Origin: Kibdelosporangium persicum
GTDB lineage: Bacteria > Actinomycetota > Actinomycetes > Mycobacteriales > Pseudonocardiaceae
Direction of reading: 5' to 3'
Assembly: GCF_013280595.1 (NCBI RefSeq)
Contig: NZ_JAAATY010000032.1
Span: 1 to 64,000, forward strand
Length of the DNA stretch: 64,000 bases
Below, piece by piece: positions 32,768-49,573 of the stretch. Made by a program: the position numbers and the translations under genes. Below the pieces are notes generated by a model. That model saw only the letters and a program-made list of their open reading frames with translations. It searched no databases and was not told the DNA's origin. How positions within the stretch are numbered: the stretch's first letter is position 1; the number at the start of each line of letters is the position of its first letter.

Positions 32768-32789
32768 GCCGTCCGCAGCAGAACCCCGA

Positions 32790-32821
32790 CGAGGGCCGCC
32801 CGGTTCACCGGGCGGCCCTCG
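32790..32821 (+). terminator. Terminator hairpin after atpD
   Basis: A perfect 15-bp inverted repeat (CGAGGGCCGCCCGGT at 32790-32804 with ACCGGGCGGCCCTCG at 32807-32821) closes on a 2-base centre. GTGTTTC follows, so the T-tract is weak, but the stem is strong. It ends the atpIBEFHAGD transcript without atpC. Confidence 0.75.
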
Positions 32822-33160
32822 CCGTGTTTCGGTGGTGTTGGGCGAGGTTCGCGAATCGCGCTGTCCACATTTGTCCGGTGGCTCTTCGATCTTGGGTCCA
32901 GCGGTGTTTGGAGGGTGTTGGGCGAGTCGACGGTCTGTAGTAGTCCACGACTGTCCGGTGACTCTTCGAGCTTCGGTCTTGCGGTGTTTCGGTGGTGTCG
33001 GGCGAGCCGACGGTTCGTTGGCGAATCTAGTTGTGCACAGCTGTCCGGTGACTTCCCGATCTTGGGCCTTGCGGTGTTTCGGTGGTGTCGGGCGAGCCAA
33101 TGGTCCGTTCGCAAATCCAGTTGTCCACAACCGCCCGGTAACCCTCCGCTCCTGGGCCTG
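32821..33160. repeat. Four imperfect 80-90 bp tandem repeats, each with a DnaA-box-like sequence
   Basis: Units at 32821-32900, 32901-32980, 32981-33070 and 33071-33160 share GCGGTGTTTCGGTGGTGT, GGGCGAG, a CGTTCG-type segment, TGTCCGGTG and a terminal CTTGGGCC. The second half of each unit carries a DnaA-box-like 9-mer: CTGTCCACA (32861), TAGTCCACG (32941), TTGTGCACA (33031) and the exact actinobacterial consensus TTGTCCACA (33121). Unit lengths 80, 80, 90 and 90 are not all multiples of three, so this is non-coding. The block occupies most of the 634-base gap between atpD and the first protease gene. Confidence 0.75.
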
Positions 33161-33167
33161 GCGGCGA

Positions 33168-33331
33168 TAGACTGGAGCAGGGCTGTCCCCCCGGGTTGGG
33201 TGGGGGCCTGTTCTGGGGGGCGCGTTGTGAGGCGCGATCGGGCATCGCGGGCGGTCGTTGGATGTTCGCCGAGTCTGGTGGCCTGCGGATCTGCTCGCGT
33301 GATTGGTCGGTCTGCGCGAATGGCCTACTAC
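33168..33331 (+). promoter_or_regulatory. Candidate promoters upstream of protease gene 1
   Basis: Two candidates lie after the repeats. TAGACT at 33168-33173 is a good -10 but 229 bases from the gene. TTGGTC (33303-33308) is followed after 17 bases by TACTAC (33326-33331), 71 bases before the TTG start. The second is better placed. The segment 33180-33215 is a C-run/G-run hairpin resembling the sequence at 53099-53123. Confidence 0.35.
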
Positions 33332-33401
33332 TTTTGGCTGTTATGACTCTCTCATCCCGCGACAAGAATGCCTGTGAACGCGTTCTGTCAGGAGGGGTGA
33401 G

Positions 33402-36400
33402 TTGGAACGTTCCCGGTTATGGTCCAGACCCGCGAGGAGTCTGACCGCTCTCGCGATCGCCGGGCTGGCGGTCGCGCTCATGCCGGTGCTGAGCACCACG
33501 GCACCCGCCGCACCGACCAACCCGTGGACCAAAGCGGACCCGGCTTCGGTGGCGGCCCGGTCGGCCAAGCAGGCCGACATCAGGACCTCCCGGTTCGCGG
33601 GATTCACCCTCGACCGGACGCTCATGCAGGGCCAACTGGGGATGCGGGCAGCGGCGGCACAGGAAGTGCTGCTGCCGACTCCTGAAGGCACGTTCCAACG
33701 GTTCTCTCTCGTCGACGCGCCGGTGATGGAAGAGGGCCTCGCGGCGGCGCACCCGGAGATCAGGACCTACGCCGGCAAAGGCATCGACGACCCGACTGCG
33801 TCGGTGCGAGCCGATCTGACACCGCTGGGGTTCCACGCTTCCGTTCGTTCGGAGAACGGCTCCTGGTTCGTCGACCCGTACTACCACCGGGACCAGAGCC
33901 TGTACGCCAGCTACTACGGCCACGACGTGCAGAACCCGAGCGGGCCGTTGCAGGAGAAGGGCATTGTCGGCGTCGCCAAGGAAGTTCAGGCGGCCATCGA
34001 CAAGAACCCCGTCGTGAAACTGCGGACCTACCGGCTCGCGCTGATCACCGACCCGTCGTACGCGAACTACTTCGGCGCCGAGAACGTCACGGCCGCGAAG
34101 GTCACGCTGATCAACCGGGTCGCGCAGATCTACGAGGACGAGACCGCGATCCGGCTGGTGTTGATCAAGGACACCGACAAGACCAACCTGAACACCCCGG
34201 CCATGGCGTCCGAGCCGAACGGACCGTGTGGCGCGGCGCCGTGCTTCAAGCCGGAGGAGCTGGAGTTCTGTGACATCCCGACGCTGTTCGCCACGGGCAT
34301 CGCGCTCGGTCAGCTCGTCGGCGCGGACTCCTACGACGTCGGGCACATCGGGCTCGGCGTGAACGGCGGCGGTATCGCCGGTCTCGGTGTTGTCGGCGGC
34401 CAGGAGAAGGCCGTCGGGTGCACCGGTCTGCCCACGCCGGTCGGCGACTTCTACGCCGTCGACTATGTGGCGCACGAGATCGGCCACCAGTTCGGCGGTA
34501 ACCACACGTTCAACGGCACCGAATGGAACTGCTCGGCGGGCAACCGTGAGCCGACCACTTCGGTCGAGCCGGGCAGCGGTTCGTCGATCATGGCGTACGC
34601 GGGCATCTGCCAGCAGGACAACCTGCAGCCGCACAGCGACCCGTACTGGTCGCACCAGAGCTACACCGAGATCACGTCGTACATCACGTCGGATCTGCCC
34701 GCGATCAACGAACAGCAGGACGTCTCGCTGCGCGGGTTCGACGGCGACGACTCGTTCACCTTGTCCTACAAGGGACAGACGTCCGCGCCGATCGTGCGGG
34801 GCGTGAACTACACCCCGGCGGGCGTCAAGGCCGCAGTCGAGTCGATCACCGGGGCGACGGTGACCGTCGCCGGGTTCGGCGACCAGCCCGACTACCGGCC
34901 GATGCCGTTCGACGACACCGGTTTCCAGGTCACGTTCGGCGGCGCGCTGGCCGGTGTGAACGTGGATTCCCTTGGCGTCACGGTGAACGGCGGTTCCGGC
35001 TTCGCCGGTGAGTCGATCAAGGGCGGTCCGGTCGACAACAAGGGCTTCAAGGTCACCGACACCCGTAACCACGCGCCCGTGGTCAAGGTGCCGTCGTCCT
35101 ACACGATCCCGGTGCGCACGCCGTTCGCGCTGACCGGTAGCGCGAAGGACCAGGACGGTGACGCGGTCACCTACATGTGGGAGCAGAACGACCGCGGCAA
35201 GGCGACCGGCACGGCGTTGGTGGACAACGTCAAGAAGGACGGCCCGCTGTTCCGGCAGTTCGGCACGGCCGCGATCGTCTCCGACGCGGACACCCTGAAG
35301 TACTACTCGCCGGGCCAGAACGCGGTGAACCGCAACCCGACCCGGGTGTTCCCGGACATGGCGCAGATCCTGGCGAACAACACCAACGCCAAGACCGGCG
35401 CGTGCCCGCCCGCCCCGCCGAAGCCGCCGTCGGGCGGCAAGACGAACGTGCCGCCGGAGCTGATCGACTGCTACTCGGAGTTCCTGCCGACGGCGGACTG
35501 GGTCGGTTTCAACGACGACCGGACCATGCATTTCCGGCTCACCGCACGGGATGCGCGGCACGGTGGTGGCGGGATCGGTATCGGTGACACGGCCGTGAAG
35601 CTCGTGCCGACCGCGGGTCCGTTCCTGGTGACGTCGCAGGGCGCCGCCGGTGCGCTGGCCGGTGGCTCGAAGCAGACGATCACGTGGGACGTGGCGGGCA
35701 CGAACGCCGCGCCGATCAACGTCAAGAACGTGAAGATCTCGCTGTCCACCGACGGCGGCAAGACCTTCCCGCACGTGATCGCCCGCAGCACGGCCAACGA
35801 CGGCAGCGAGCAGGTGAAGATCCCGGATCTGGCGACCACCACCGCCCGGATCAGGATCGAGGCAGTCGGGAACATCTTCTTCGACGTCAACGACGCCGAC
35901 TTCACCATCAACGCCTCGCCGCGGGTGACCAGCCCGCAGAACATCGCTGTGCAGTACAGCGACGCTCTCGCGCCGGTCACGATCACCGCTGAGGACCCGG
36001 ACAGCGCCGGTTCGGTGTTGACCGCGGTCGCGGCGGGCCTGCCCGCGGGTTTGGCGGTGGCACCGGGAACCGCGGACGGCAACAAGCGGACGTGGACGAT
36101 TTCCGGCACCACCACGGACAAGCCGGGGACGTACCCGGTCGCGTTCACGGTGACCGACAACACCGGTGTGGCCAGCACGCTCACGGTGCCGATCACCGTG
36201 AAGCCGGAGGACGCCGAGGTCACCTACGCCGGGGATTCGTTGGTGTACGGCGATTCCGTGCTGTTCCGGGCGACGATCCGGGACAACACCGATGTCACTC
36301 CGGGTGACGTCAAGAAGGCGAACGTGACGTTTTCCGCCGGTGGCAAGGCATTGTGCACCGCCACTGTCGGTCTGCTCGGGACTGGCACCTCGGACGGCTC

Positions 36401-36935
36401 GGGCGGGTGCGTTGCCAAGCTGCCGCAGGGCGTCACCTCGGTGAGCGTGTCCGCCGGCGGCAACTATGCCGGTACGGCAACGACATCGGTGGACGCCCAG
36501 GCGTCGCAGAAGCGGACCGTGCTCGCGGCCGGCGTGATCACCGCGACCAAGTCCGCCGGCGCCTACCGGGCCGACCACGGCACTCCGGTCAACGTTTCGG
36601 CTCTGCTGGTGCACAACAACGCCAAGACGACCGGCCTGAGCACGGTCAGGTTCCGGTCCGGCGGCAAGGAGTACCTGGCGTTCGGCAACAACGTCGAGTC
36701 CTTCGGGGCCCGGACGTCCGGCTCGCTGGACGTGCGCGCCAAGGTTCTGCTCACCGACGTGACCAGCGGCCAGGCGATGTTCGTCGCCGCGGGCGTCACG
36801 TTGCACGTCACTCAGAACGGCCGCAACGTCGCGGTAACCCTCATGCAGGGTGACAAGTTGCTGTTCTCGTCCGACTGGACGGGCGCGAAGACACGGGAGA
36901 TCCCGCTCAACACCGGCGGATTCCTGATCGCATAA
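33402..36935 (+). CDS. Secreted M12-type (reprolysin-like) zinc metalloprotease with Ig-like domains, paralogue 1
   Basis: 1177-residue exported protease. A signal peptide (basic start, then LTALAIAGLAVALMPVLSTTAPAA) leads into a propeptide and a metzincin catalytic domain with VAHEIGHQFGGNHTF. His358, His362 and His368 are zinc ligands, Glu359 the base, and SIMAYAG the Met-turn. Cysteines in GPCGAAPCF and WNCSAGN suggest disulfides. Residues ~560-1177 form several Ig/cadherin-like and He_PIG-type domains (YMWEQNDRG, SPRVTSPQNIAVQYSD, ATIRDNTDVTPGDV). Start TTG follows AGGAGGGG. A close paralogue lies immediately downstream. Substrate unknown; likely extracellular nutrition or envelope remodelling. 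Confidence 0.88.
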   Translation: MERSRLWSRPARSLTALAIAGLAVALMPVLSTTAPAAPTNPWTKADPASVAARSAKQADIRTSRFAGFTLDRTLMQGQLGMRAAAAQEVLLPTPEGTFQRFSLVDAPVMEEGLAAAHPEIRTYAGKGIDDPTASVRADLTPLGFHASVRSENGSWFVDPYYHRDQSLYASYYGHDVQNPSGPLQEKGIVGVAKEVQAAIDKNPVVKLRTYRLALITDPSYANYFGAENVTAAKVTLINRVAQIYEDETAIRLVLIKDTDKTNLNTPAMASEPNGPCGAAPCFKPEELEFCDIPTLFATGIALGQLVGADSYDVGHIGLGVNGGGIAGLGVVGGQEKAVGCTGLPTPVGDFYAVDYVAHEIGHQFGGNHTFNGTEWNCSAGNREPTTSVEPGSGSSIMAYAGICQQDNLQPHSDPYWSHQSYTEITSYITSDLPAINEQQDVSLRGFDGDDSFTLSYKGQTSAPIVRGVNYTPAGVKAAVESITGATVTVAGFGDQPDYRPMPFDDTGFQVTFGGALAGVNVDSLGVTVNGGSGFAGESIKGGPVDNKGFKVTDTRNHAPVVKVPSSYTIPVRTPFALTGSAKDQDGDAVTYMWEQNDRGKATGTALVDNVKKDGPLFRQFGTAAIVSDADTLKYYSPGQNAVNRNPTRVFPDMAQILANNTNAKTGACPPAPPKPPSGGKTNVPPELIDCYSEFLPTADWVGFNDDRTMHFRLTARDARHGGGGIGIGDTAVKLVPTAGPFLVTSQGAAGALAGGSKQTITWDVAGTNAAPINVKNVKISLSTDGGKTFPHVIARSTANDGSEQVKIPDLATTTARIRIEAVGNIFFDVNDADFTINASPRVTSPQNIAVQYSDALAPVTITAEDPDSAGSVLTAVAAGLPAGLAVAPGTADGNKRTWTISGTTTDKPGTYPVAFTVTDNTGVASTLTVPITVKPEDAEVTYAGDSLVYGDSVLFRATIRDNTDVTPGDVKKANVTFSAGGKALCTATVGLLGTGTSDGSGGCVAKLPQGVTSVSVSAGGNYAGTATTSVDAQASQKRTVLAAGVITATKSAGAYRADHGTPVNVSALLVHNNAKTTGLSTVRFRSGGKEYLAFGNNVESFGARTSGSLDVRAKVLLTDVTSGQAMFVAAGVTLHVTQNGRNVAVTLMQGDKLLFSSDWTGAKTREIPLNTGGFLIA

Positions 36936-36943
36936 CCCATTCA

Positions 36944-37010: not shown

Positions 37011-40000
37011 GTGAGATCGTCGTTACCCACCCGCGGCCGCAGTCTGGCCGCACTCGCGATCGCGGGCCTGTCGCTCGCGCTGCTGCCGGTGTTCGGCACC
37101 GTGGCACCGGCCGAGTCGGAGAACCCTTGGACGAAGGTCGAAGGCAATCCGATCGCGGCGAGGTCGGCCAAGCAGGCCGACATCCGGACGGACAAGTTCG
37201 CCGGGTTCACTTTGGACCGGGAGGCGATGCAGGGCGACCTGTCGCTCGCGCCGCGCGCCGCGGCGGCGGGCAAGGAAGTCCTGTTGCCCACGCCGGAAGG
37301 CACGTTCGAGCGGTTCTCGCTCGTCGACGCGCCGGTGATGGAGGAGAAGCTCGCCGCCGCGCACCCGGAGATCAAGACCTACGCCGGCAAGGGCATCGAC
37401 GACCCGACCGCGACCGTACGCGCGGACCTGACACCACTGGGGTTCCACGCTTCCGTGCGTTCGAAGCGCGGTCACTGGTACGTCGACCCCTACTACCACC
37501 GCGACCAGAGCCTCTACGCCAGCTACTACGGCCACAACCTGCGTAACGACGCCGGGCCGTTGGTGGAGAACGAAGAGATCGAAGAGGTCCTGCAGGACGC
37601 CCTGCCCGCGGACGCCGGCCCGATCGTCAAGCTCCGGACCTACCGCCTGGCTCTCGTCACCGATCCCTCGTACGCCAACTACTTCGGCGCCGAGAACGTG
37701 ACGGCCGCGAAGGTCACGCTGGTCAACCGGGTCGCGCAGATCTACGAGGACGAGACCGCGATCCGGCTGGTCCTGGTCAACGACACCGACAAGACCAACC
37801 TGAACACGGCCGCCGAGGCGACCGGCGCGAACGGTCCCTGCGGCGCGGCGCCGTGCTTCACGACCTCGCAGCTCGCGGGTTGCAGCAGCGGCCTGTTGAA
37901 CCGCAACCAGATCGTGCTCGGCCAGCTGATCGGCGCGGGCAGCTACGACGTCGGGCACATCGGGCTCGGCCTGAACGGCGGCGGCATCGCCGGTCTCGGC
38001 GTGGTCGGTGGCAGCGGAAAGGCCCGTGGCTGCACCGGTCTGCCGACGCCGGTCGGCGACTTCTTCGCGGTGGACTACGTGGCGCACGAGATCGGCCACC
38101 AGTTCGCCGGCAACCACACGTTCAACGGTACCCAGGGCGCCTGCTCCGGCGGCAACCGCAGCGCGGCCAACTCGTACGAGCCGGGCAGCGGCTCGTCGAT
38201 CATGGCGTACGCCGGTATCTGCGGGCAGGACAACCTGCAGCCGCACAGCGACCCCTACTGGTCGCAGCGCAGCTTCACCGAGATCACCACGTTCACGTCG
38301 ACGCCACGGGCGCCGATCAACGAGGTGCAGAACATCGGCCTGCGTGACTTCGACGGCACCGACTCGTTCACCTTGTCCTACAACGGCAAGCAGTCCGCGC
38401 CGATCGTGCGGGGCACCAACTACACCGCCGCGGGCATCAAGGCCGCCATCGAGGGCATCGAGGGCTGGCCGGCGGGTGCGACCGTGGCCGTGGCCGGCTT
38501 CGGCAACACCTTGTTCAACGACACCGGTTTCCAGGTGACGTTCCAAAGTGGAGCGGTCGCCGCGGTCGACGTCCCGTCGCTCGGCTTCACCGGCACCGGG
38601 ACCACCGCGGTCGTCGGTGAGACTGTGGACGGTGGCCCGCAGGAGAACACCGGGTTCAAGGTCGAGGACACGACCAACCACGCCCCGGTCGTGACCGCTG
38701 CCGCGCAGTACACGATCCCGCTGCGTACGCCGTTCTCGTTGACCGGCACCGCGACGGACGCCGACGGCGACAAGCTCACCTACATGTGGGAGCAGAACGA
38801 CCGCGGCGGCAGCCTGGGCACGGCCCTGGTGAACAACGTGAAGAAGGACGGCCCGCTGTTCCGCCAGTTCGGCACGGCGGCGATCGTCAGCGACGAGGAC
38901 ACCCTGAAGTACTACTCGCCGGGCCAGAACGCGGTGAACGACAACCCGACGCGGGTGTTCCCGGACATGCAGCAGGTGGCGGCGAACAACACCAACGCCG
39001 AGGCGGGCGCGTGCCCGGCCGCACCGGCGCCGCCCGCGACCGTGCCGGCCGCGCTGGTGGACTGCTACTCGGAGTTCCTGCCGACGGCGGACTGGGTCGG
39101 CTTGGCCGGAGACCGCACGCTGCACTTCCGCCTGACCGCTCGTGACTACCGCGCGGGCGGTGGCGGTGTGGGCAGTGCCGACACCGCGTTGGTGCTGGCC
39201 CCGGACACCGGCCCGTTCCTGGTGACCTCGCAGAACACCGCCGGGACCACCTACCAGGGCGGTTCGGCGCAGGACATCACGTGGGACGTCGCGGGCACGA
39301 ACGCGGCACCGGTCAACGCCGCCGAGGTGAAGATCTCGCTGTCCACCGACGGCGGCGTGACGTTCCCGCACGTGCTGGCGGAGCGCACGGCCAACGACGG
39401 CAGCGAGTCGCTGGCCCTGCCGGACGTGGCGACCGAGAAGGCCCGGATCAGGATCGAAGCGGTCGGCAACGTCTTCTTCGACCTCAACGCCGTGGACTTC
39501 ACCATCCAGGCGTCGCCGCGGGTCACCGCACCGGCCGGCGCGACTGTGCAGTACAGCGACGCGGCGTCGTTCCCGGTGACCGCCAACGACCCGGACAGCC
39601 CGGTCGAGGGCCTGACCGCGACCGCCGCCGGCCTGCCCGCCGGTCTCTCGCTGACCCAGGCCGGGCCGGGTTCGTGGAACATCTCGGGCACGACCACGGC
39701 CGCGCCCGGTGACTACCCGGTGTCCGTGTCGGTGACCGACTCGACCGGTGTCGTGGGGAAGTCGTCGTTCCCCATCAAGGTCACCCCTGAGGACGCCGCG
39801 GTCACGTACACAGGGGATTCCTTGGTGGACGGTGGCTCTGTGCTGCTGCGGGCGACCGTGCGGGACAACACCGACAACACGCCCGGCGATGTCCTGAGTG
39901 GAACGTTGACGTTCACCGCGGGCGACCAGACGCTGTGCACGGCCTCCTTGGCGCCGCTGGGCACTGGCCCGGCGGACGCGTCCGGCAACTGCACGGCGCA

Positions 40001-40514
40001 GCTCCCGGCCGGTGTGCACGAGGTGACGGCTTCCGTCGGTGGCAACTACACGGGAAAAGCACCTGGGCGGGTTGAGGTCACCAACTCGCGGAACAGCCTC
40101 GTGATCGGCAACGGCTCGGTGCCGCTGAGCAAGGCGTACGGCGCCGACAACGGCACCAGGGCGGACTTCACGCTGGCGGTGACGCACGTCAACGGGCAGT
40201 CCACCGGGGCCAGCCTGGTGACGTTCACCTCGGGCGGCAAGAAGTACCAGATCCGCAGCGTCCGCGTGGACTCGTTCGGCTCGTCCCGGATGGGCACGAT
40301 CGACATGCGCGGCCGTGCCGAGCTGGTCGACGTGACCGACCACTGGCGGCCGAAGACCGTGGCCGCCGGCCTGACCCTGCGGGTGACCGGCAAGGTCAAG
40401 GAAGGCATGGCGATCACCCTGTTCGACGGCTCGAAGCTGGTGTTCTCCACCGCGTGGAACGGCGCTTCGACCGACGCGACGAAGCTGGCCAGGGGCACCC
40501 TGGTCGTGCTGTAG
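37011..40514 (+). CDS. Secreted M12-type zinc metalloprotease with Ig-like domains, paralogue 2
   Basis: 1167 residues, same architecture as the preceding gene and largely alignable along its full length. Signal peptide AALAIAGLSLALLPVFGTVAPA; catalytic VAHEIGHQFAGNHTF (zinc ligands His359, His363, His369; base Glu360) and Met-turn SIMAYAG. The same Ig-like C-terminal modules follow (YMWEQNDRGG, SPRVTAPAGATVQYSD, ATVRDNTDNTPGDV). The GTG start follows GAGGAG. Differences cluster in the linker after the prodomain (VENEEIEEVLQDALPADAG) and in the Ig modules. With a terminator just upstream and no room for a promoter, expression probably depends on read-through from paralogue 1 or on a promoter inside it. 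Confidence 0.88.
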   Translation: MRSSLPTRGRSLAALAIAGLSLALLPVFGTVAPAESENPWTKVEGNPIAARSAKQADIRTDKFAGFTLDREAMQGDLSLAPRAAAAGKEVLLPTPEGTFERFSLVDAPVMEEKLAAAHPEIKTYAGKGIDDPTATVRADLTPLGFHASVRSKRGHWYVDPYYHRDQSLYASYYGHNLRNDAGPLVENEEIEEVLQDALPADAGPIVKLRTYRLALVTDPSYANYFGAENVTAAKVTLVNRVAQIYEDETAIRLVLVNDTDKTNLNTAAEATGANGPCGAAPCFTTSQLAGCSSGLLNRNQIVLGQLIGAGSYDVGHIGLGLNGGGIAGLGVVGGSGKARGCTGLPTPVGDFFAVDYVAHEIGHQFAGNHTFNGTQGACSGGNRSAANSYEPGSGSSIMAYAGICGQDNLQPHSDPYWSQRSFTEITTFTSTPRAPINEVQNIGLRDFDGTDSFTLSYNGKQSAPIVRGTNYTAAGIKAAIEGIEGWPAGATVAVAGFGNTLFNDTGFQVTFQSGAVAAVDVPSLGFTGTGTTAVVGETVDGGPQENTGFKVEDTTNHAPVVTAAAQYTIPLRTPFSLTGTATDADGDKLTYMWEQNDRGGSLGTALVNNVKKDGPLFRQFGTAAIVSDEDTLKYYSPGQNAVNDNPTRVFPDMQQVAANNTNAEAGACPAAPAPPATVPAALVDCYSEFLPTADWVGLAGDRTLHFRLTARDYRAGGGGVGSADTALVLAPDTGPFLVTSQNTAGTTYQGGSAQDITWDVAGTNAAPVNAAEVKISLSTDGGVTFPHVLAERTANDGSESLALPDVATEKARIRIEAVGNVFFDLNAVDFTIQASPRVTAPAGATVQYSDAASFPVTANDPDSPVEGLTATAAGLPAGLSLTQAGPGSWNISGTTTAAPGDYPVSVSVTDSTGVVGKSSFPIKVTPEDAAVTYTGDSLVDGGSVLLRATVRDNTDNTPGDVLSGTLTFTAGDQTLCTASLAPLGTGPADASGNCTAQLPAGVHEVTASVGGNYTGKAPGRVEVTNSRNSLVIGNGSVPLSKAYGADNGTRADFTLAVTHVNGQSTGASLVTFTSGGKKYQIRSVRVDSFGSSRMGTIDMRGRAELVDVTDHWRPKTVAAGLTLRVTGKVKEGMAITLFDGSKLVFSTAWNGASTDATKLARGTLVVL

Positions 40515-41433: not shown

Positions 41434-41441
41434 GCTGAGTG

Positions 41442-44315
41442 ATGGGTTCCTCGGTTCGGTTCGGCGTGCTCGGCCCGTTGGTGGCCTCGGCCGCCGCTGG
41501 GCCGATCGACCTCAAAGGACCCCGGCACCGGGCGGTGCTCGCGCGACTGCTCGTCGCCAGGGGCCGGGTCGTCCCGGTCGACATGCTGGTCGCCGACCTG
41601 TGGGAGGACCCGCCGGACGGGGCGGTCGGCGCGATCCAGACCTTCGTGGCGGCGTTGCGCCGAGCCCTGGAGCCCGACCGGCCACCCCGGACTCCCGCGA
41701 AGCTGCTCGTGACGTCCGGCCCTGGCTATGCACTGCGCGCGGACTCGGTGGACGCCTGGGACTTCGAGGCCGCGCTCGGCGGCTCCTTGTCCGATTTGGA
41801 CTCCGCGCTCGCGTTGTGGCGGGGCCCTGCTTACGCCGAGTTCGCGGACCAGGCGTGGGCGCGGGCCGAGATCTCCCGGCTGGACGAGCTCCGGCTGCTG
41901 GCTGTGGAGCGGCGTGCCGAGGCGCTGCTGGGGCTGGGCCGTGCCGCTGAGGCCGTGCCCGATCTTCAGGCGCATGTGGACGGACATCCGTGGCGGGAGG
42001 ACGCCTGGAGGTTGCTCGCCCTGGCTCAGTACCGCGCGGGACGCCAGGGTGACGCGCTGGATTCGTTGGACCGGGCCCGCCGGGTGCTGTCCGAGGAGTT
42101 GGGTGTGGACCCGGGGCCGGCGTTGCGCCAGCTCCAGGCCGATGTCCTGGCGCAGGTTGTTCCCGTCCGTCAGGGGCCGGTGCTGGTCGGCCGGGACGAG
42201 GAGATGGCGCACCTGTTGGACACCGCCTCGGCGGTTGTCCGATCCGGGCACCTCAAGCTGGCGTTGATCAGCGGGGAAGCGGGGGCGGGGAAGACCGCTT
42301 TGGCGTCCGCGCTGCGTGCTCGGCTGGAATCGGACGGGTGGAACGTCCGGTGGGGCGGCAACCTGGAGGACCTGCCGTCCGGCTGGGCTGACATCGTCGA
42401 TCCCGCCGTGGCGCGTTTCCAGCGGTATCAGGCTTTCCGGTCGCACCTGGCCGCGCGAGGGCGGTTGCTTGTCGTGCTTGACGACGTGCACTGGGCCGAT
42501 GAGGAAACGTTGACGCTGCTGGCTTCTGTGGTCACCGACCCAGTGGACGCACCCGTGCTGGTCGTGGCGACCTTCCGGACGACCGAGGCGCCGACCTCCT
42601 TCCTGGGCCGGGTCGCGCGGTCCGAGCCGACGCGGATTTACCTTGGCGGACTTGCCGTGTCCGATGTCCCGGCCGTCGTGCACGCCGCGGTCGGACTGGA
42701 CGTGGATGCGTCGACCGCCGAAGTGATCCATCGGCGCAGTAACGGAAATCCGTTCTTCGTCCGTGAACTCGCGCGGCTGCTCGCCGCTGACGGTGACTTG
42801 TCCAGCGTGCCTGCGGGGGTGCGGGATGTTGTGCGGTATCGGTTGTCCCAGCTGCCTTCCGATGTCCAGGCGGTTCTCCGGACGGCCTCCGTGGTCGGCA
42901 ACTCGTTCCCACTCGACGTGGCCGGCTCGTTGGACGCTGCTGAAGTCGCTGTGCGGCAAGGTTTTCTCACCGAGGTCGCGGCTGGTCAGTTCGAGTTCTC
43001 GCACGCCTTGGTCCGTGACTCGCTGTACGAGGACCTCTCGCAGTCACGCCGGGCACAACTGCATCTTGAGGTCGGACAGATCATCGAACGCGTGCGGCCG
43101 GACGACGTCGCTGCCTTGGCACACCACTTCGCGATGGCGTCAGACTCGCGGGCCGGTCGTTATGCGCGTGCCGCGGCTGCGGAGGCGGAGGTACGGTTCG
43201 CTTTCGGTGAGGCCGCACGGCTTTGGCGCGTTGCTCTGGCCGGCGCGACTGATGTCCGTGAACAGCTTGAGCTGACCATGGGCCTGGTCCGGGCGTTGTC
43301 GTTCAGCGGTTCACTCGGCGAGGCCCGGGCACTCCGGAGTTCCGCGCTCGACCTGCTCGCCTCCATCGACGACCCCGAGTTGACCGCGCGCGTGATCGCT
43401 TCCTTCGACGTGCCCGCGATCTGGCCCTCGCACGACGATCCAGCCCTGGCGGCCAGGGTGGTCGCGGTCACCGAACGTGTCCTGCCTTCGGTGTCCGCGG
43501 CTTCGCGAAGCCGGTTGCTGGCCACGATCGCCATGGAACTGCGCAGCTCAGGCGGGCCGCGTGCGGTCGAGGCCGCCGTGGAAGCCGAGTCCCTCGCGCG
43601 GTCGTTCGACGACCCTTCGATGCTCGCTTTCGCTTTGAACGCCCGGTTCATGCAGTCGTTCTCCCGTGCTGGGCTCGCTCCGGAACGCGTGCGCATCGGG
43701 TCCGAGCTGGTTTCGTTGGCGTCGAGGCATTCCCTGGTGACCTTCGAGGTGCTCGGGCACCTGATCCTGATGCAGGCCCACTCCGCGCTCGCCGAGTTCT
43801 CCGTCGCCGACGCGCATGCCGCCGCGGTGTCGCGGCTCGGTGCCGACTACCAGTTGCCGCTGGTGAGCGTGTTCACGCAGTGGTACAAGGCGCTTCGTGC
43901 CTCGGTGGCGGGCGAGGACGCTTCAGGCCTGTACCGCGACGCCGCCGCTTCGCTGGCCGCGGCCGAGATGCCCGGATTCGACGACGGAATGCTGTCTTTC
44001 GCGCTGTTCTGCCACGAGGTCCGCAACGGGCTTCCGGTCGATCTGACCAGGGATTTCGGCGGTTTCGAACCGTGGTGCAGGCCCGGCAGGACGATTCCGG
44101 AGTCACCAAGGGACCTGCTTTTCGAGGCCCGGACGTGCCTGCACGCGATGGCCGCGATCGAGGCGGGGGACCGTGCCACGATGGAACGGCTCCACGAGGT
44201 GCTGCGTCCCGCGGCAGGGGAGCTGGCCGGGGCGGGCAGCGGGTTGCTCACGCTCCGGCCGGTCGCCTTCTACCTGGACGAACTGGCACGTGCGCTGGGG
44301 CGGACTACACCGTGA
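41442..44315 (+). CDS. Large SARP/BTAD-AAA transcriptional activator (AfsR/DnrI-like with ATPase module)
   Basis: 957 residues. N-terminal OmpR-type winged helix (about 5-95: VRFGVLGPLVAS..HRAVLARLLV, VDMLVADLWEDPP, LLVTSGPGYAL) and bacterial transcriptional activation domain (100-245: WRGPAYAEFADQAWARAEISRLDELRL..LGVDPGPALRQLQ) define the SARP class. An ATPase module follows, with Walker A SGEAGAGKTAL near residue 280 and Walker B LLVVLDDVHWAD. The last 400 residues are helical/TPR-like, a layout shared with large LuxR/SARP regulators. The ATG at 41442 is preferred to the GTG at 41439 because it fits a leaderless start. Its 3' end overlaps convergent pqqB by 11 bases. It may regulate the PQQ cluster, which is context only. 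Confidence 0.87.
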   Translation: MGSSVRFGVLGPLVASAAAGPIDLKGPRHRAVLARLLVARGRVVPVDMLVADLWEDPPDGAVGAIQTFVAALRRALEPDRPPRTPAKLLVTSGPGYALRADSVDAWDFEAALGGSLSDLDSALALWRGPAYAEFADQAWARAEISRLDELRLLAVERRAEALLGLGRAAEAVPDLQAHVDGHPWREDAWRLLALAQYRAGRQGDALDSLDRARRVLSEELGVDPGPALRQLQADVLAQVVPVRQGPVLVGRDEEMAHLLDTASAVVRSGHLKLALISGEAGAGKTALASALRARLESDGWNVRWGGNLEDLPSGWADIVDPAVARFQRYQAFRSHLAARGRLLVVLDDVHWADEETLTLLASVVTDPVDAPVLVVATFRTTEAPTSFLGRVARSEPTRIYLGGLAVSDVPAVVHAAVGLDVDASTAEVIHRRSNGNPFFVRELARLLAADGDLSSVPAGVRDVVRYRLSQLPSDVQAVLRTASVVGNSFPLDVAGSLDAAEVAVRQGFLTEVAAGQFEFSHALVRDSLYEDLSQSRRAQLHLEVGQIIERVRPDDVAALAHHFAMASDSRAGRYARAAAAEAEVRFAFGEAARLWRVALAGATDVREQLELTMGLVRALSFSGSLGEARALRSSALDLLASIDDPELTARVIASFDVPAIWPSHDDPALAARVVAVTERVLPSVSAASRSRLLATIAMELRSSGGPRAVEAAVEAESLARSFDDPSMLAFALNARFMQSFSRAGLAPERVRIGSELVSLASRHSLVTFEVLGHLILMQAHSALAEFSVADAHAAAVSRLGADYQLPLVSVFTQWYKALRASVAGEDASGLYRDAAASLAAAEMPGFDDGMLSFALFCHEVRNGLPVDLTRDFGGFEPWCRPGRTIPESPRDLLFEARTCLHAMAAIEAGDRATMERLHEVLRPAAGELAGAGSGLLTLRPVAFYLDELARALGRTTP

Positions 44316-45180
44316 TGAGGGTGCCGTCGAGCGGCGCCTCCGCGCCAGCCGCCAGCACCTCTTCGTACTCCCGGGAAGCCGGGTCGAGGATCGGGTTCGT
44401 GTTGTTGAGGTGCGTGTAGATCCACCGTTTCCCCGGATGACGCGCGATCCGCGCGAGGCTGCCGTCCGGGCCCGCTATCGGGATGTGGCCCATCGCGCGT
44501 TGCGCACCGGACCCCACGCCTTTGTTGGTAGCGCCGGACATCTCGTCGGGTGAGTAGAACGTGCCATCGAGAATCACGCACGTGGCGTCCTCGATCAGCT
44601 CGTCGAAGCCGTCCGGCCACGTCTTCAAGCACGGCGCGTAGACCACACTGCCGCCGGACGGGTCGGTGATCTTGTACGCGACCACCCATGGACCGTCCGC
44701 TGTGGACCGGACATATTTGGGTTTCTTGCCGCTGACCGGGAAAACCGTCACCGACAGCCCGTCGATCGGGAAAGTTTCCGGAATCGGACGCCAATCCCAG
44801 GAACCGTAGCGGGAAACGATGCCCTGGAGCGGAAAATCCGTGCCCAGGGCGTGCAGGACGGCGGGCGGTGCCCAGACCTGTAACCCCGCGCCTTCGCGCA
44901 GCATGGCCAAGCCGAGGGTGTGGTCGAGTTCCGCGTCGGTCAGCAAGGCTCCGCGCACAGGGGTGTCGCGCGGGCCCGGACCCGCGGCCAACGCCGGTGC
45001 CGACAGGATCTGCGTGCGGATGTCCGGCGAAGCGTTGATCAGGTACCAACCGGCACCGTCCGCGCTGATCGCGACGCAGTCCTGGGTCCGGGCGGGCAGG
45101 CCCGCCGTGCACATCCGGCAGGCGCAGTTCCACTGCGGGAACCCGCCGCCCGCGGCCGTACCCAGCAGCAGGACCTGCAC
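44305..45180 (-). CDS. pqqB: PQQ biosynthesis protein PqqB
   Basis: 291-residue metallo-beta-lactamase-fold protein needed for pyrroloquinoline quinone synthesis; PqqB has been described as an iron hydroxylase of the tyrosine/glutamate precursor. It has the signature start VLLLGTAAGGGFPQWNC with C-x-C-x2-C (CACRMC), TDAELDHTLGLAMLREG, VILDGTFYSPDEM, and the C-terminal HLNNTNPIL with NTNP conserved. The gene is last in the pqqACDEB order, one base after pqqE. Confidence 0.96.
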   Translation of the reverse strand: MQVLLLGTAAGGGFPQWNCACRMCTAGLPARTQDCVAISADGAGWYLINASPDIRTQILSAPALAAGPGPRDTPVRGALLTDAELDHTLGLAMLREGAGLQVWAPPAVLHALGTDFPLQGIVSRYGSWDWRPIPETFPIDGLSVTVFPVSGKKPKYVRSTADGPWVVAYKITDPSGGSVVYAPCLKTWPDGFDELIEDATCVILDGTFYSPDEMSGATNKGVGSGAQRAMGHIPIAGPDGSLARIARHPGKRWIYTHLNNTNPILDPASREYEEVLAAGAEAPLDGTLITV

Positions 45181-45181: not shown

Positions 45182-46291
45182 CTAGACCACCTTGATCGTG
45201 TTCTGCCGCATCACGAGCTCCGGCGGCTCGGACGGGGTGCTGGCCAGGATCGTGTCGATCAGCCCTCTGTCCGGGGACAGCGAACAGACCGGGTCCGTCG
45301 CGCCCGCGTCGCCGGTCAGCAGGAACGCCTGGCAACGGCAGCCACCGAAGTCGATGCCCTTGCGCGAGCAGCCGCGGCACGGGTCGGGCAGCCAGTCCTC
45401 GCCGCGATAGGCGTTGAACGCCGCCGAGCGATACCAGATGTCCGCCAGGTTCCTCGACCGGACGTTGTCCAGCGTCAACGTGGTGATCGACGAGGCCGCC
45501 GGGCACGGCAGCACGTCGCCGTTCGGCGCCACCGTCAACTGCCGGGAACCCCAGCCGTACATACAGGGTTTGGGGTACGGCGAGTAGTAGTCCGCGACCA
45601 CGTAGACGATCTGCATCGTGTCCCGCAGACGCTCGGTCGCGGCGCGCACGATCGGTTCGGCCTCGGCCAGTTGCTCGGCCGTGGGCATCAGCGCCGAGCG
45701 GTTGCGCAGGCCCCAGCCGTAGTACTGGGTGTTCGCCAGTTCCAGGCGATCGGCGCCCATCCGCTCGGCCAGCGCGATCAAGTCCGCGACCTGATGGTGG
45801 TTCGCGCGGTGCAGCACCACGTTCACGGTCAGCGGTATGTCGAGTTCCTTGACCGCTTGGGCGGCTTTGAGCTTGTGCGCATGGGCTTTGACGCCCGCGA
45901 TCCGGTTCGCCGTCTCGGCGTCGGCGCCCTGGACGGACAGCTGCACGTGGGCGAGACCGCGATCGACCAGGTCCGTCAGGCGTTCCTCGGTCAGGCCGAG
46001 ACCGCTGGTCACCAGGTTGACGTAACATCCGAGGTCTGCCGCTCTGCTCACGAGCACCGGCAAGTCGTGGCGGGCCAACGGTTCCCCGCCGGACAGGTGG
46101 ACCTGTAGCACGCCCAGTTCCCGCGCCTGGCCGACGACGTCGAGCCATTCGTCCGTCGACAGTTCGTTCTCCCTGGTCACGAGCTCGATCGGGTTGGAGC
46201 AGTACGGGCAGTGCAGCGGGCACCGATGGGTCAGCTCGGCGAGCATGCCCAGTGGCGGCTGTGCTGTCGGCTGGTGGGCGGTCACTTCCAT
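45182..46291 (-). CDS. pqqE: PqqA peptide cyclase, radical SAM/SPASM enzyme PqqE
   Basis: Forms the Glu-Tyr carbon-carbon crosslink in PqqA. The radical-SAM cluster ligands are Cys24, Cys28 and Cys31 (C-x3-C-x2-C in THRCPLHCPYC). SGGEPLARHDL and the SPASM region with CMYGWGSRQ, VLPCPAAS, DPCRGCSRKGIDFGGCRC and a final DPVC supply ligands for auxiliary clusters. Length 369, typical. Its start overlaps the pqqD stop, as expected for proteins that act as a complex. Confidence 0.97.
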   Translation of the reverse strand: MEVTAHQPTAQPPLGMLAELTHRCPLHCPYCSNPIELVTRENELSTDEWLDVVGQARELGVLQVHLSGGEPLARHDLPVLVSRAADLGCYVNLVTSGLGLTEERLTDLVDRGLAHVQLSVQGADAETANRIAGVKAHAHKLKAAQAVKELDIPLTVNVVLHRANHHQVADLIALAERMGADRLELANTQYYGWGLRNRSALMPTAEQLAEAEPIVRAATERLRDTMQIVYVVADYYSPYPKPCMYGWGSRQLTVAPNGDVLPCPAASSITTLTLDNVRSRNLADIWYRSAAFNAYRGEDWLPDPCRGCSRKGIDFGGCRCQAFLLTGDAGATDPVCSLSPDRGLIDTILASTPSEPPELVMRQNTIKVV

Positions 46292-46554
46292 TCGACAACC
46301 CGCCGTTCTTCCAGCCGGGTCAGCACGTTCCGGACGTCTTCGACGCGGACGCCCTCGTACCTGCGGCCGAGCTCAGCGGCGATCTCGGCGACGGTGGCAA
46401 CGCCGTCGCACAGTTCGAGCACCGCCGCGGCGGTCTTGTTGGGCACCAGAACGCCTTCGGGGAACAGCAGGACGTGCGTCTCGCGCGTCTTGTCGTACGT
46501 CAGCCGAACGCCACGGCGCAACCGTGGCGCGGAGTCCAGGCCGATCATGGACAT
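46282..46554 (-). CDS. pqqD: PqqA-binding chaperone PqqD
   Basis: 90-residue winged-helix RiPP recognition element that binds PqqA and delivers it to PqqE. Recognisable features are the PRLRRGVRLTYD..HVLLFPEGVL strand region, LNKTAAAVLELCDG-like (PNKTAAAVLELCDG) and the C-terminal DVRNVLTRLEERRVVEW. The ATG at 46554 has AAGGAG seven bases upstream; it lies four bases after the pqqC stop and overlaps pqqE by 10 bases. Confidence 0.95.
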   Translation of the reverse strand: MSMIGLDSAPRLRRGVRLTYDKTRETHVLLFPEGVLVPNKTAAAVLELCDGVATVAEIAAELGRRYEGVRVEDVRNVLTRLEERRVVEWK

Positions 46555-46558
46555 CGGC

Positions 46559-47260
46559 TCACTCCTTCCTCGCCGCGCGCTCGACCGCGTCCAACATGGA
46601 CCACAGCACGTCACACTTGAACGACAGAGCGGCGATGGCCTTCTCCTGCTCGGCACGGGTCCGGCAGTACTCGACCACGATGTCCGCTGTGGCCTGTCCC
46701 TCGCCGGACACCGCGTCGATCCGGTTGGTGAAGTACGCCAGGTCCTCACGGCGGATCCACGGGTAGTTCGCCAACATGTCGGCGACACGCTGGCGCATCA
46801 GGTGCCCGGAGAACATCTCGGTCAGGCCGGACGCGATCGCCTCGACCCACGGCTTGGTGCGTGCGAAGGTCACGTAAGCGTCGACGGCGAACCGCACGCC
46901 GGGCGCGACATGCCGCTCGTCGAGGACTTCTTCCCTGGTCAGGCCGACCGCTTCGCAGAGCCGCAGCCACCTCTCGCGTCCGCCTTCGCCCTCGGCCGCA
47001 CCGTCGTGGTAGACGATCCTGGTCAGCCAGTCACGACGGATTCGTGGCACGGGACAGTTGCTGATGATCGCCGCGTCCTTCTGCGGCAGCATGCTCTGGT
47101 AGTACCAGCGGTTGGCCGCCCACGTGCGAAGCTCGAACTCCGACAGGCTGCCGTCGTGCAGTCTGCGGTGGAAGGGATGGGTTCCCCAGTAGCGGTGCGA
47201 CAGGCCGCGTAAGGCCTCGACGAAGTCGCCGGCGGACAGCGGTGAGTCCGGAGTGGACAT
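46559..47260 (-). CDS. pqqC: Pyrroloquinoline-quinone synthase PqqC
   Basis: Cofactor-free oxidase carrying out the final ring closure and oxidation to PQQ. A 233-residue all-helical TENA/THI-4-like protein with YWGTHPFHRRLHDGSLSE, ANRWYYQSMLPQKDAAIISN, RFAVDAYVTFA and FTNRIDAVSGEGQATADIV, all conserved in the family. GGAGGAAA precedes the ATG. Upstream is a stem-loop that separates it from pqqA. Confidence 0.97.
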   Translation of the reverse strand: MSTPDSPLSAGDFVEALRGLSHRYWGTHPFHRRLHDGSLSEFELRTWAANRWYYQSMLPQKDAAIISNCPVPRIRRDWLTRIVYHDGAAEGEGGRERWLRLCEAVGLTREEVLDERHVAPGVRFAVDAYVTFARTKPWVEAIASGLTEMFSGHLMRQRVADMLANYPWIRREDLAYFTNRIDAVSGEGQATADIVVEYCRTRAEQEKAIAALSFKCDVLWSMLDAVERAARKE

Positions 47261-47288
47261 TGCGTTTCCTCCATGCGCGGGGGTGGAG

Positions 47289-47321
47289 GGGCGAGGGCCG
47301 CGGTAGGGCCGGCCCTCGCCC
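47289..47321 (-). terminator. Stem-loop between pqqA and pqqC (possible attenuator)
   Basis: GGGCGAGGGCC (47289-47299) and GGCCCTCGCCC (47311-47321) form a perfect 11-bp stem with an 11-base loop and no T-tract. It follows the pqqA stop by 9 bases on the minus strand. A partial terminator or mRNA-stabilising hairpin here would raise the peptide substrate pqqA above the enzymes, as in other RiPP operons (inference). Confidence 0.6.
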
Positions 47322-47330
47322 GTGGACCGG

Positions 47331-47429
47331 TCAGTCCATCCGTGCCGCGTAGGCCGTGATCTCCATCGGCGTTTCGTACTCGACGAAGTCCGGCGTGGTC
47401 CAGACCTCGCGCTCGGTGTTCTCGATCAT
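47331..47429 (-). CDS. pqqA: PQQ precursor peptide PqqA, 32 aa
   Basis: Ribosomal precursor from which PQQ is cut. The minus-strand frame from ATG 47429 encodes 32 residues ending ..VEYETPMEITAYAARMD. The crosslinked pair is Glu23 and Tyr27 in E-I-T-A-Y, the strictly conserved E-x3-Y. GAGGAG lies eight bases upstream of the ATG. The gene is first in the pqqACDEB order, 70 bases before pqqC. It is easily missed because of its size. No promoter with a good match to consensus was recognised upstream. Confidence 0.95.
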   Translation of the reverse strand: MIENTEREVWTTPDFVEYETPMEITAYAARMD

Positions 47430-47642
47430 CTGTGCACTCCTCGATTCCTCGGACGGTCCGGCATGGATCGTCACCAAAGGTTTGCGTCGTGCATCACGAG
47501 CGTAGGAGCTGAACGGCCGACAAGGCTAGGCCTCCCAGCGTTTCCGCACGGCGATCCCTGTCAATGGAGTACCGGCCCGCGATCCTGTCACCGAGTGTGA
47601 CGCCAGTGATCGGATGTTTCCGGGCCGGGTCGGCCCGGTCGA

Positions 47643-48965
47643 TCAGCGGGCCGCCGGGACGATCGCGGGCTCCTTGCCGGGGTACGACACCCTGATCTCG
47701 ACAGCGTCGTTCGGCACTCGCAGTGCCTCGTGCACGTTCTCCAGCCACGCACCGTCCTTTGTGGTCCGATAGCTCAGCGTCGCACCCTTGGCCACCGCCA
47801 GCTTCCCGCTCTTGTCGGGCAAGGTGACCAGCACGGGCAGTGGGCTGCCCTTCTGTGTCGGGCCAAGTGAGTACACCTCGCCGTGCTTGCCCTCGGCGGT
47901 GATGGTCACCGCGTAGAGCCGGGTCGGTCCACTGTGGAGTGTCACGTGCTCGCTGATCACGTACTGCTGCGAAGCTGTCCCCGCCACCGAGACGTACCAC
48001 GTGTGGGACCCGGAGAGATGGCGTTGCGCCGGGTCGATCACGTCCGTCTTCGCCAGTGCCTTCTGCCAGCGCTCGGACAGCCAGGGAGAGTCGTTCCAGT
48101 GCGCGGGTGGTTGCCCCGGCTGCGCCCACATCAGGTGGACCCCACCCTGTGCCGTGCCCCAGTCGAGGCCACTGTAGGTGTGCTTGAGCGCCAAGATCCG
48201 GGCCTCGTCGGCGTTGTAGGTGTCGACGATCTCGTCTTCGGTGACGCCGTCATTCGGGTCGCCCGCGATGACATTGCCGTCCATCGGGCCGGTGCCGGGC
48301 GGGAGTTCGGCCAGCAGCACGCCGTCCGCCTCGCGCATCGGGCGCCAATCCCGGTCCGCCAGGCCGTCCGGGTTGTCGTAGGTGACCTTGTCCGAGACGA
48401 ACTGCGGCTGCTCGCCTTCCAGCGCGAGCACGACGCGGTCCTCCGGCCCGAACTTGTAGGCCTTGTCCTTGCCTTCGCGCGGCATGGGTTCGTCGAGGAT
48501 CAGCAGTTCCAGCTCGCCGCTCCGCTGGCTGATGCCGACCAGCCCACGAACGGTCTCGTGGGTGGCGGTCTCCTGCATCACCACGGCCGCGCGGCCCGCG
48601 GGCGTGGTGCCCGCCCAGTACACATGCGGCTTCGTCACCACCTTGTCGACTGGTTCTCTGGGTTTGTCCTCCCACGCCTCGATCACCTCTTCGAGGAAGG
48701 CCGCGTCCTGGGCCAGATCGCCCCGAGTCGGCTTGGTCATCCTCGGGTCGGTCGCGACCTGCGTCGGCTCTGACAGGAACTGCCAGCCGGCGGACGCTGT
48801 CGTGCTGACGGCCGCGACGGCGACCAAGGTCGTGGCGGCGACGGTGATCCTGCGGACGCGCTGGCGCCGTACGCCGCCGCGCATCACGTCGGCCGTCAGC
48901 GTCGGGCGCGGTTCGAGCTCGACCGTCGCACCACGCAGCGCCGCCTTCAGTTCTTCCGTGTTCAT
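47643..48965 (-). CDS. Membrane-anchored partner of the SigE-family sigma factor
   Basis: 440 residues. Short cytoplasmic N-terminus (MNTEELKAALRGATVELEPRP..), basic RRQRVRRI before one TM helix (TVAATTLVAVAAVSTTASAGW), then a large extracytoplasmic domain of unknown fold. The ATG overlaps the upstream sigma-factor stop (ATGA), so the two are translationally coupled. That arrangement is typical of a sigma/anti-sigma pair, but no zinc-binding anti-sigma motif (H-x3-C-x2-C) is present. Anti-sigma activity is inferred from context. It lies 213 bases upstream of pqqA on the same strand. Confidence 0.7.
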   Translation of the reverse strand: MNTEELKAALRGATVELEPRPTLTADVMRGGVRRQRVRRITVAATTLVAVAAVSTTASAGWQFLSEPTQVATDPRMTKPTRGDLAQDAAFLEEVIEAWEDKPREPVDKVVTKPHVYWAGTTPAGRAAVVMQETATHETVRGLVGISQRSGELELLILDEPMPREGKDKAYKFGPEDRVVLALEGEQPQFVSDKVTYDNPDGLADRDWRPMREADGVLLAELPPGTGPMDGNVIAGDPNDGVTEDEIVDTYNADEARILALKHTYSGLDWGTAQGGVHLMWAQPGQPPAHWNDSPWLSERWQKALAKTDVIDPAQRHLSGSHTWYVSVAGTASQQYVISEHVTLHSGPTRLYAVTITAEGKHGEVYSLGPTQKGSPLPVLVTLPDKSGKLAVAKGATLSYRTTKDGAWLENVHEALRVPNDAVEIRVSYPGKEPAIVPAAR

Positions 48966-49462
48966 GGCTTGCTCCTGATGTGCTCGTCCAGCAACTCCCG
49001 CAACCTGGTCAGGCCCCTCGATGTCTGGCTCTTGACCGTGCCGACGCTGCACCCCAGCGCGCAGGCCGTGTCCGCCTCGCTCAAGTCGTCGTAGAAGCGC
49101 AGTACGAGGACCGCGCGCATGCGTTCCGGCAGGCCGCCCAGAGCGCGCACGACCTCGTCGCGGTCGAGCACCTCTTTCTCCGGGCCGTTCACCGCCGTGT
49201 GCGTCGTGTCTGTGAGCGGTGTCTCATGTACGCGCCTGGATCGTCGGCGCCATCGGTTCGCCGACGCGTTCGCCAGCGCGGCCCTCGCGTACGCCTCCGG
49301 CTCGCCCTTGATCCGTTTCCACTTCGGGTACATCCGTTCGAGCACCTCTTGCAGCAGGTCCTCGGCGGCACCCCGGTCACCCGCGCAGAGCAGGTACGCC
49401 GTGCGCAGCAGCACCGCCGACCGGCCCGCCACGAACTGCTCGAAGTCACCCTTGTCAGGCAC
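48962..49462 (-). CDS. SigE-family ECF RNA polymerase sigma factor
   Basis: 166 residues with sigma region 2 (RTAYLLCAGDRGAAEDLLQEVLERMYPKW) and region 4 (ALGGLPERMRAVLVLRFYDDLSEADTACALGCSVGTVKSQTSRGLTRLR). It belongs to the short actinobacterial SigE family. The GTG start lies behind a G-rich ribosome-binding site. It is divergent from atpC with a 111-base intergenic region. The cognate promoter and signal are unknown; the coupled membrane protein downstream is the probable regulator. Confidence 0.9.
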   Translation of the reverse strand: MPDKGDFEQFVAGRSAVLLRTAYLLCAGDRGAAEDLLQEVLERMYPKWKRIKGEPEAYARAALANASANRWRRRSRRVHETPLTDTTHTAVNGPEKEVLDRDEVVRALGGLPERMRAVLVLRFYDDLSEADTACALGCSVGTVKSQTSRGLTRLRELLDEHIRSKP

Positions 49463-49537
49463 CCGGCAACCCCCTTAACGCCATCCTTGACCCGCTTCAC
49501 ACCGGGAGGGGCGTCGAGGTTGCGAACGCCTGCCGTT

Positions 49538-49543
49538 TAGACT
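49538..49543 (+). promoter_or_regulatory. -10 element of the displaced atpC
   Basis: TAGACT (preceded by TT) lies 30 bases before the GTG of atpC in the gap shared with the divergent sigma gene. No convincing -35 at 16-18 bases. It would supply transcription to atpC, which is cut off from the main atp operon. Confidence 0.45.
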
Positions 49544-49573
49544 GGCCGCCAAGGGGACACGAAGGAGAAACGC

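Follow-up and report, generated by a model that had tools for sequence, protein, structure and literature searches.

ATP synthase is usually seen as the product of one co-transcribed set of genes, in which the subunit ratios come from a common mRNA, and its epsilon subunit limits ATP hydrolysis in other bacteria. In Kibdelosporangium persicum, a soil actinomycete of the family Pseudonocardiaceae, the subunit genes of this set are parted by unrelated genes. The DNA analysed here, hereafter the window, is a stretch of 64,000 nt from contig NZ_JAAATY010000032.1 of assembly GCF_013280595.1, and all positions refer to it. The gene for the beta subunit, atpD, is the last of the upstream atp transcription unit and ends at position 32767, and the gene for the epsilon subunit, atpC, starts at 49574. 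The resulting gap of 16.8 kb holds ten genes plus pqqA. An earlier note, made by a model from the sequence of the window, had drawn attention to this split, to the contents of the gap and to the DUF2550 gene behind the displaced atpC; coordinates, profile searches and domain matches bear out all three.

The upstream unit closes, on the plus strand, with atpA (alpha subunit; 28746–30386), identified by its translation and its orthologues in relatives, atpG (gamma; 30398–31336), likewise with orthologues in relatives, and atpD (31340–32767; Pfam ATP-synt_ab, 236.6 bits). Directly 3′ of atpD lies a presumed terminator hairpin (32781–32830, plus strand) with arms of 24 nt that are 88% complementary and with a weak U-tract. 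On the far side of the gap, atpC (49574–49942, plus strand) matches PF02823 with 88.7 bits and the NCBIfam model of the F0F1 epsilon subunit above its cut-off. It is followed on the same strand by the DUF2550 gene (49968–50435), which stands downstream of atpC across the family. A search of the whole assembly (10.35 Mb, 89 contigs) with the PF02823 profile returned a single match, this same gene, and therefore no second atpC was found that could sit beside atpD elsewhere. The expectation of the earlier note that atpC depends on a promoter of its own is supported: its transcription has to be separate, and a putative −10 element, TAGACT (49538–49543, plus strand), does lie where the start of transcription had been expected, 36 nt before the GTG start codon; a presumed ribosome-binding site, AAGGAG (49562–49567, plus strand), stands between the two.

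Within the gap, direct repeats in copies of 80–90 bp (32814–33117) lie between the hairpin and the first of two tandem secreted M12B-type metallopeptidase genes on the plus strand (33402–36935, Reprolysin_2 with an E-value of 1.6e-34; and 37011–40514, whose product is 66% identical to the first). They are followed by an alpha/beta hydrolase gene on the minus strand (40559–41377; Abhydrolase_1, 5.4e-27) and, on the plus strand, by a regulator of the Streptomyces antibiotic regulatory protein (SARP)/AfsR type with BTAD and AAA domains (41439–44315). A full biosynthesis cluster for pyrroloquinoline quinone (PQQ) occupies the minus strand, each gene scoring above its NCBIfam cut-off (given after the bit score): pqqB (44305–45180; TIGR02108, 344.5 against 245), pqqE (45182–46291; TIGR02109, 534.5 against 381.35), pqqD (46282–46554; TIGR03859, 74.6 against 46), pqqC (46559–47260; TIGR02111, 270.7 against 240) and the precursor peptide gene pqqA (47331–47429; TIGR02107, 28.6 against 20), whose product of 32 aa is smaller than the open reading frames listed for the window. 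Closest to atpC, also on the minus strand, are the genes for a membrane protein, p469, a presumed regulator of the neighbouring sigma factor (47643–48968), and for a SigE-family extracytoplasmic function (ECF) sigma factor (48962–49462; TIGR02983, 170.8 against 141.55), which is divergent from atpC and whose 3′ end overlaps the 5′ start of the p469 gene. Between the sigma gene and the −10 element of atpC lies a conserved element of 26 nt (49498–49523), with the pattern [GA]CAACCT-N-CCGGTGT on the minus strand, presumed to be the promoter of the sigma gene. A second sigma/anti-sigma system, an ECF sigma factor with an RskA-like protein (50489–51753), is found just behind the DUF2550 gene, and atpC and DUF2550 thus lie between two sigma systems.

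Distribution of the split

All eight Kibdelosporangium genomes in the search, that of K. persicum included, are split. The gap measures 10.6 kb in G114, 15.8 kb in G131, 16.8 kb in K. persicum, 17.0 kb in G093 and 18.1 kb in G065, and, as worked out by hand from coordinates, about 18.8 kb in G027, 20.9 kb in G163 and 23.9 kb in G147. In G027 and G147 the split lies on single-contig assemblies (11.8 and 12.8 Mb, respectively). The proteases and pqqB-E-D-C are inside the gap in all eight genomes, the hydrolase and the regulator in six, and the sigma pair (sigma gene and p469 gene) in five. A PQQ-type sugar dehydrogenase gene lies between pqqC and the site of the sigma pair in six of the eight; it scores 112.6 bits against TIGR03606, under the cut-off of 434.55. 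It is absent from our window, the nearest homologue in K. persicum (58% identity) being on another contig. The record behind G065 (JOAA01000025.1) is titled Rhodococcus rhodnii NRRL B-16535; its gene order is that of Kibdelosporangium, it clusters with the genus, and the title is probably wrong.

In order to see how far the arrangement extends, we turned to the whole family, in which PF02823 has matches in 293 of 297 genomes. Of these, 94 were examined (K. persicum and 93 others), covering all 46 genera; Kibdelosporangium was sampled whole and the other genera were chosen for coverage from the matches listed. With a split defined as an atpD–atpC gap of at least 1 kb, 38 of the 94 genomes and 15 of the 46 genera are split, fractions that are not family frequencies because the sample was picked for genus coverage. 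The halves are 1.4–24 kb apart. Among the contiguous genomes, 46 have a gap of 111–389 bp and 10 a gap of 2–97 bp, and one genus (g22) contains both split and contiguous genomes. On the tree of the atp genes (96 rows), unrooted parsimony requires at least 8 changes of the split state. Comparison across relatives, which the earlier note had proposed for dating an insertion, thus places the split before the genus Kibdelosporangium.

The contents of the gap differ between genera. In genera g2, g17, g29, g31, g34 and g43, and in three of the four g45 genomes, the insert consists of the sigma pair alone, mostly 2.0–2.3 kb long and with both genes directed away from atpC; the shortest inserts, of only 1.4 kb, are those of G055 (g17) and G192 (g8). 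G023 (g24) has, besides the pair, an incomplete second copy of it. Genera g8 and g23 combine the pair with other genes, for example ATP-binding cassette exporters or an aromatic-catabolism set (an IclR regulator, a hydroxybenzoate monooxygenase-like protein and a major facilitator superfamily transporter), names that were read from the sequences themselves rather than from a family library; G123 (g8) has a diverged sigma-gene match only. Genera g7, g9 and g32, three g22 genomes and G152 (g45) have other genes in the gap and no pair. One of these gaps, that of G006 (g7; stretch L056), is 10.2 kb long and holds, judging by sequence, three tandem alkaline-phosphatase-like genes among others.

Forty stretches represent other families of the class. 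The gap is shorter than 100 bp in 24 of them and 109–215 bp in 14, and two are split (families f11 and f14). The genes for beta and epsilon are apart in all three genomes fetched from f11, by about 1.65–4.8 kb (L160, L161 and L162), and in the one fetched from f14, by about 4.6 kb (L163). Four further outgroup stretches (L165, L166, L167 and L170) are contiguous and do not enter the counts; L164, L168 and L169 were left out of the analysis. In K. persicum and many of its relatives, other genes appear to have accumulated ahead of atpC over a long time, and the separation therefore gives the impression of an old, stepwise process and not of a recent foreign insertion.

Signals at the two borders of the gap

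The best hairpin energy after atpD was compared with that in shuffled sequence. In split genomes the mean is −39.5 kcal/mol against −22.6 kcal/mol in shuffles, and it is nearly the same in contiguous genomes with a gap of at least 100 bp (−38.1 against −22.8 kcal/mol). Control hairpins average about −17 kcal/mol after atpA and −23 kcal/mol after atpG.

Before atpC, the hexamer TANNNT was scored at positions −50 to −20 with coding windows as control. It occurs in 37 of 38 split genomes (0 of 228 coding windows) and, among contiguous genomes whose gap is at least 100 bp, in 44 of 46 (2 of 276). The hexamer stands most often at −36 and mostly 35–42 nt before atpC. A narrower pattern, TA[GC]A[CA]T, which was picked after viewing the sequences, precedes atpC in 80 of 94 genomes, as against 0 of 89 before atpG, 0 of 90 before atpD and 0.7% of shuffles. 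The form of the hexamer differs between the two groups: TA[GA]ACT is present in 37 of 38 split but only 22 of 46 contiguous genomes, many of the latter having TACACT or TAGAAT. In the outgroups TA[GC]A[CA]T was found at the family's position in none of the 38 non-split stretches, and TANNNT in 3 of 14 with a gap of 109–215 bp and 1 of 24 with a gap below 100 bp. All three genomes of family f17, which we tentatively take to be Streptomyces-like, are contiguous and free of inserts, with a hairpin and with TAGACT or TAGAAT at −54 to −56. The promoter signal before atpC is therefore conserved beyond chance as far as its −10 element is concerned, a generic scan adding no −35 to it, and in nearly all split genomes, G065 and G006 being the exceptions, the insert is bounded by the atpD hairpin on one side and the −10 element of atpC on the other. 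We infer that the hairpin terminates the atpI-D transcript and that the −10 element is used to start that of atpC.

Probable origin of the split and possible role of the sigma pair

These observations are probably best explained if atpI-D and atpC had become uncoupled and the gap between them was then filled by genes. In most of the family the atp genes would form two transcription units, atpI-B-E-F-H-A-G-D and atpC-DUF2550, the hairpin ending the message of the first and the −10 element starting that of the second. DNA entering between hairpin and promoter would break neither message, and its insertion would therefore be tolerated. The sigma gene and its membrane partner would have settled in the gap early and mostly been passed on vertically, with later additions differing by lineage; in Kibdelosporangium these would be the two proteases, the regulator, the hydrolase and the PQQ cassette. 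Transcriptional uncoupling is thus the likely cause of the split, and it presumably preceded the first insertion. Since most relatives with adjacent atpD and atpC possess both hairpin and −10 element, a separate promoter may be a condition of splitting and not just a result of it, and the contiguous f17 genomes, which have both signals and no insert, suggest that uncoupling can exist without one.

Several observations weigh against this interpretation. A hairpin of −20 kcal/mol or stronger follows atpD in 34 of 35 split genomes, but 76 of 90 also attain this value after atpG, and only the means therefore discriminate. Outgroups with a gap of at least 100 bp also have strong hairpins (mean −35.6 against −24.1 kcal/mol), and the atpD hairpin is therefore not special to Pseudonocardiaceae. 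In the 10 family genomes whose gap is shorter than 100 bp, hairpins do not exceed the shuffles (−20.2 against −20.0 kcal/mol), and only 4 of these genomes have TANNNT (1 of 60 coding windows). Of the split genomes, G065 has a hairpin of only −17.1 kcal/mol and G006 lacks a −10 in the window scored. In K. persicum itself the terminator called by the earlier note holds up as a hairpin but not as a canonical terminator: only a short run of T follows the stem, and a generic terminator scan did not list it. Likewise, no promoter is called before atpC by a generic sigma-70 scan, for which a −35 is required. Finally, parsimony is ambiguous and the genera with tight gaps are nested in the quick tree, which keeps the proposed order, uncoupling before filling, tentative.

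Scored by its sigma-gene match, the sigma pair is present in the atpD–atpC gap in 28 of the 96 tree rows and in 11 genera, namely Kibdelosporangium and 10 others, often alone (about 2 kb). The tree of the pair correlates with that of atpA, atpG and atpD (Mantel r 0.75, p 2e-4, 24 genomes), also when each genus is represented by one genome (r 0.36, p 0.03, 11 genera). Both trees contain the groups g1+g31, g17+g34 and g8+g23. The trees nevertheless conflict in places, the pair tree joining g2 with g8+g23 and g43 with g24, and the state of the pair changes at least 11 times on the atp tree (96 rows), a count from unrooted parsimony that does not separate gain from loss. Away from atpC the pair is rare: full-length p469 (E < 1e-90) was found in 4 of 30 genomes searched, all with the pair at atpC; 56 candidates were scored per genome, so that its absence elsewhere is not complete. 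On balance, the sequences suggest that the pair was mostly inherited vertically. In G034, one of the four genomes with full-length p469, two further sigma/p469 pairs lie away from atpC (G034:C1:1246800–1250200 and 2304900–2308400; L158 and L159).

Within Kibdelosporangium some species have lost the pair. G093, G114 and G131 are without it and retain the promoter-like element of 26 nt, in G114 with a change at one end; beside it, in G093 and G131, is a stretch that to the eye remains similar to the start of the sigma gene. G152 (g45) is a similar case in another genus. Such losses, together with a parsimony result compatible with many of them, lend some support to the reverse order of events, in which the sigma pair entered the intact operon of the family ancestor and forced a promoter for atpC, after which the contiguous genera shed the insert but not promoter and hairpin. 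We regard this as unlikely. The three f17 genomes are contiguous with a hairpin and TAGACT or TAGAAT and have no insert, and outside the genera that contain the pair no footprint was found of the 26-nt element, which matches in 3 of 106 pairless genomes (66 of the family, 40 outgroup), all three in genera with the pair.

A different possibility concerns what the pair does rather than when it arrived: the sigma factor and its partner could be a functional regulator of atpC, the holoenzyme setting the level of epsilon by going on and off the 26-nt element. This element, which on the sigma strand we take to resemble an ECF promoter, spans −76 to −51 of atpC. With its end 14 nt from the atpC −10 at −36, it is so close that two polymerases would hardly bind together. 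Its pattern is present in 23 of the 28 genomes with the pair, as against the 3 of 106 others. In the three pairless Kibdelosporangium species the element is identical at 23 of 26 positions and the 94-nt upstream flank at only 12 of 94, compared with 25 of 26 and 47 of 94 in the five genomes of the genus that have the pair. This conservation hints that the element matters to atpC and makes control of epsilon by the sigma factor possible, though unproven. Nevertheless, a regulatory role of this kind seems improbable: species that lack the pair still have the −10 of atpC and presumably express the gene; five genomes with the pair (three of g23, two of g8) do not show the pattern; the element was not found before the two paralogous sigma pairs of G034; and retention of the element could reflect recent loss of the pair. 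The stronger version, in which sigma factor and membrane partner are a dedicated epsilon controller and the element is both sigma promoter and atpC control element, is marginally less plausible still, although it would account for the persistence of the pair at atpC and for the survival of the element after loss of the sigma gene. If it were true, an envelope signal would set the dose of inhibitory epsilon independently of the rest of ATP synthase.

To the earlier note the whole block looked like horizontally gained cargo. On such a view, a single recent island would have been inserted when the ancestor of the genus still had its operon intact, and the atpC promoter would have been gained afterwards. 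In its favour, proteases and a SARP-type regulator stand at atpC, among the sampled intervals, only in Kibdelosporangium, and just 9 of 120 family genomes, including 5 from this genus, have protease homologues with E ≤ 1e-100. The proteases, hydrolase and regulator may be of outside origin. As an account of the split itself, this proposal is largely refuted and very improbable, given that 15 of 46 genera are split, that the pair is common to 10 other genera and that the majority of contiguous relatives show a comparable hairpin and −10. Moreover, there is no G+C shift (0.655–0.704 in the block, 0.648–0.717 outside; 1.5-kb windows over 22000–54999), no tRNA in 22000–55000, and the proteins scanned in the block include neither an integrase nor a transposase.

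The PQQ genes, too, group with those of the family. pqqE scores above its cut-off in 78 of 120 family genomes, and in 20 of 20 stretches fetched from 18 other genera it lies outside the atpD–atpC gap; the order pqqC-D-E-B is kept in 17 of these stretches, and a divergent sugar-dehydrogenase homologue is present in 10. In a tree of PqqB, PqqE and PqqC, Kibdelosporangium forms one clade within the sequences of the family, although its nearest neighbour is supported at only 0.61. Because the cassette groups with family PQQ genes that lie elsewhere, it more likely moved within the lineage or genome than came from outside. In two genomes from two genera, PQQ genes are located only about 70 kb (G009:C4) and 100 kb (G054:C4) from atpC, a proximity that may be a sign of relocation over a short distance into the atp gap of Kibdelosporangium. 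Last, a joining of unrelated contigs, conceivable for an assembly in 89 pieces, is ruled out for practical purposes by the seven other genomes of the genus, which are likewise split with proteases and pqqB-E-D-C inside, two of them on single contigs.

Comparison with known systems

If uncoupling did precede filling, a terminator plus a promoter can create, within an operon, a gap where docking is tolerated. In most of the family the epsilon gene appears to be independent, and the family displays side by side overlapping or tight genes, adjacent but uncoupled ones, an inserted pair, large cargo and a lost pair. It offers a natural series in which to follow the break-up of an essential operon and to ask whether the cells make use of separate epsilon control.

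The pair resembles other ECF sigma factors with a membrane partner in that its genes overlap and share a strand, and the sigma factor passes the cut-off of the SigE family (TIGR02983). It differs in its partner. p469 matched no Pfam or NCBIfam family, and the zf-HC2/RskA-type domain of class I anti-sigma factors is absent from it (no Pfam family in 47646–49052), whereas the RskA-like protein behind DUF2550 (50489–51229) does carry that domain. The structure model of p469 (mean predicted local distance difference test score, pLDDT, 80.1; residues 44–70 below 50) has N-terminal helices, one presumed transmembrane helix and an all-beta outer part, for which a fold search gave no convincing solved relative (best match: probability 0.25, TM-score 0.10). 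A further difference is that the full-length partner was seen only in the 4 of 30 genomes with the pair at atpC, within the 56 candidates scored in each.

As for the atp operon, separate predicted units with subsets of the atp genes are common according to the excerpted text of PMC5709465, where 78.6% of the units in Actinobacteria are standard and complete. An epsilon-only unit in Actinobacteria is not named in those excerpts. The method described there merges neighbouring units on the same strand that have no interrupting gene, and uncoupling of adjacent atpD and atpC would therefore be invisible to it. No report of an atpD–atpC split in Pseudonocardiaceae was found in the open PMC literature. 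In the available portion of PMC4154653, splits between beta and epsilon are described for Aquificae and Beggiatoa, and the actinobacterial locus, represented by five species, is listed as unsplit. The arrangement reported here is like those splits in that atp subunit genes lie apart on the chromosome; it differs in being actinobacterial, in its presence in 38 of the 94 family genomes examined and in the closeness of the two halves, 1.4–24 kb.

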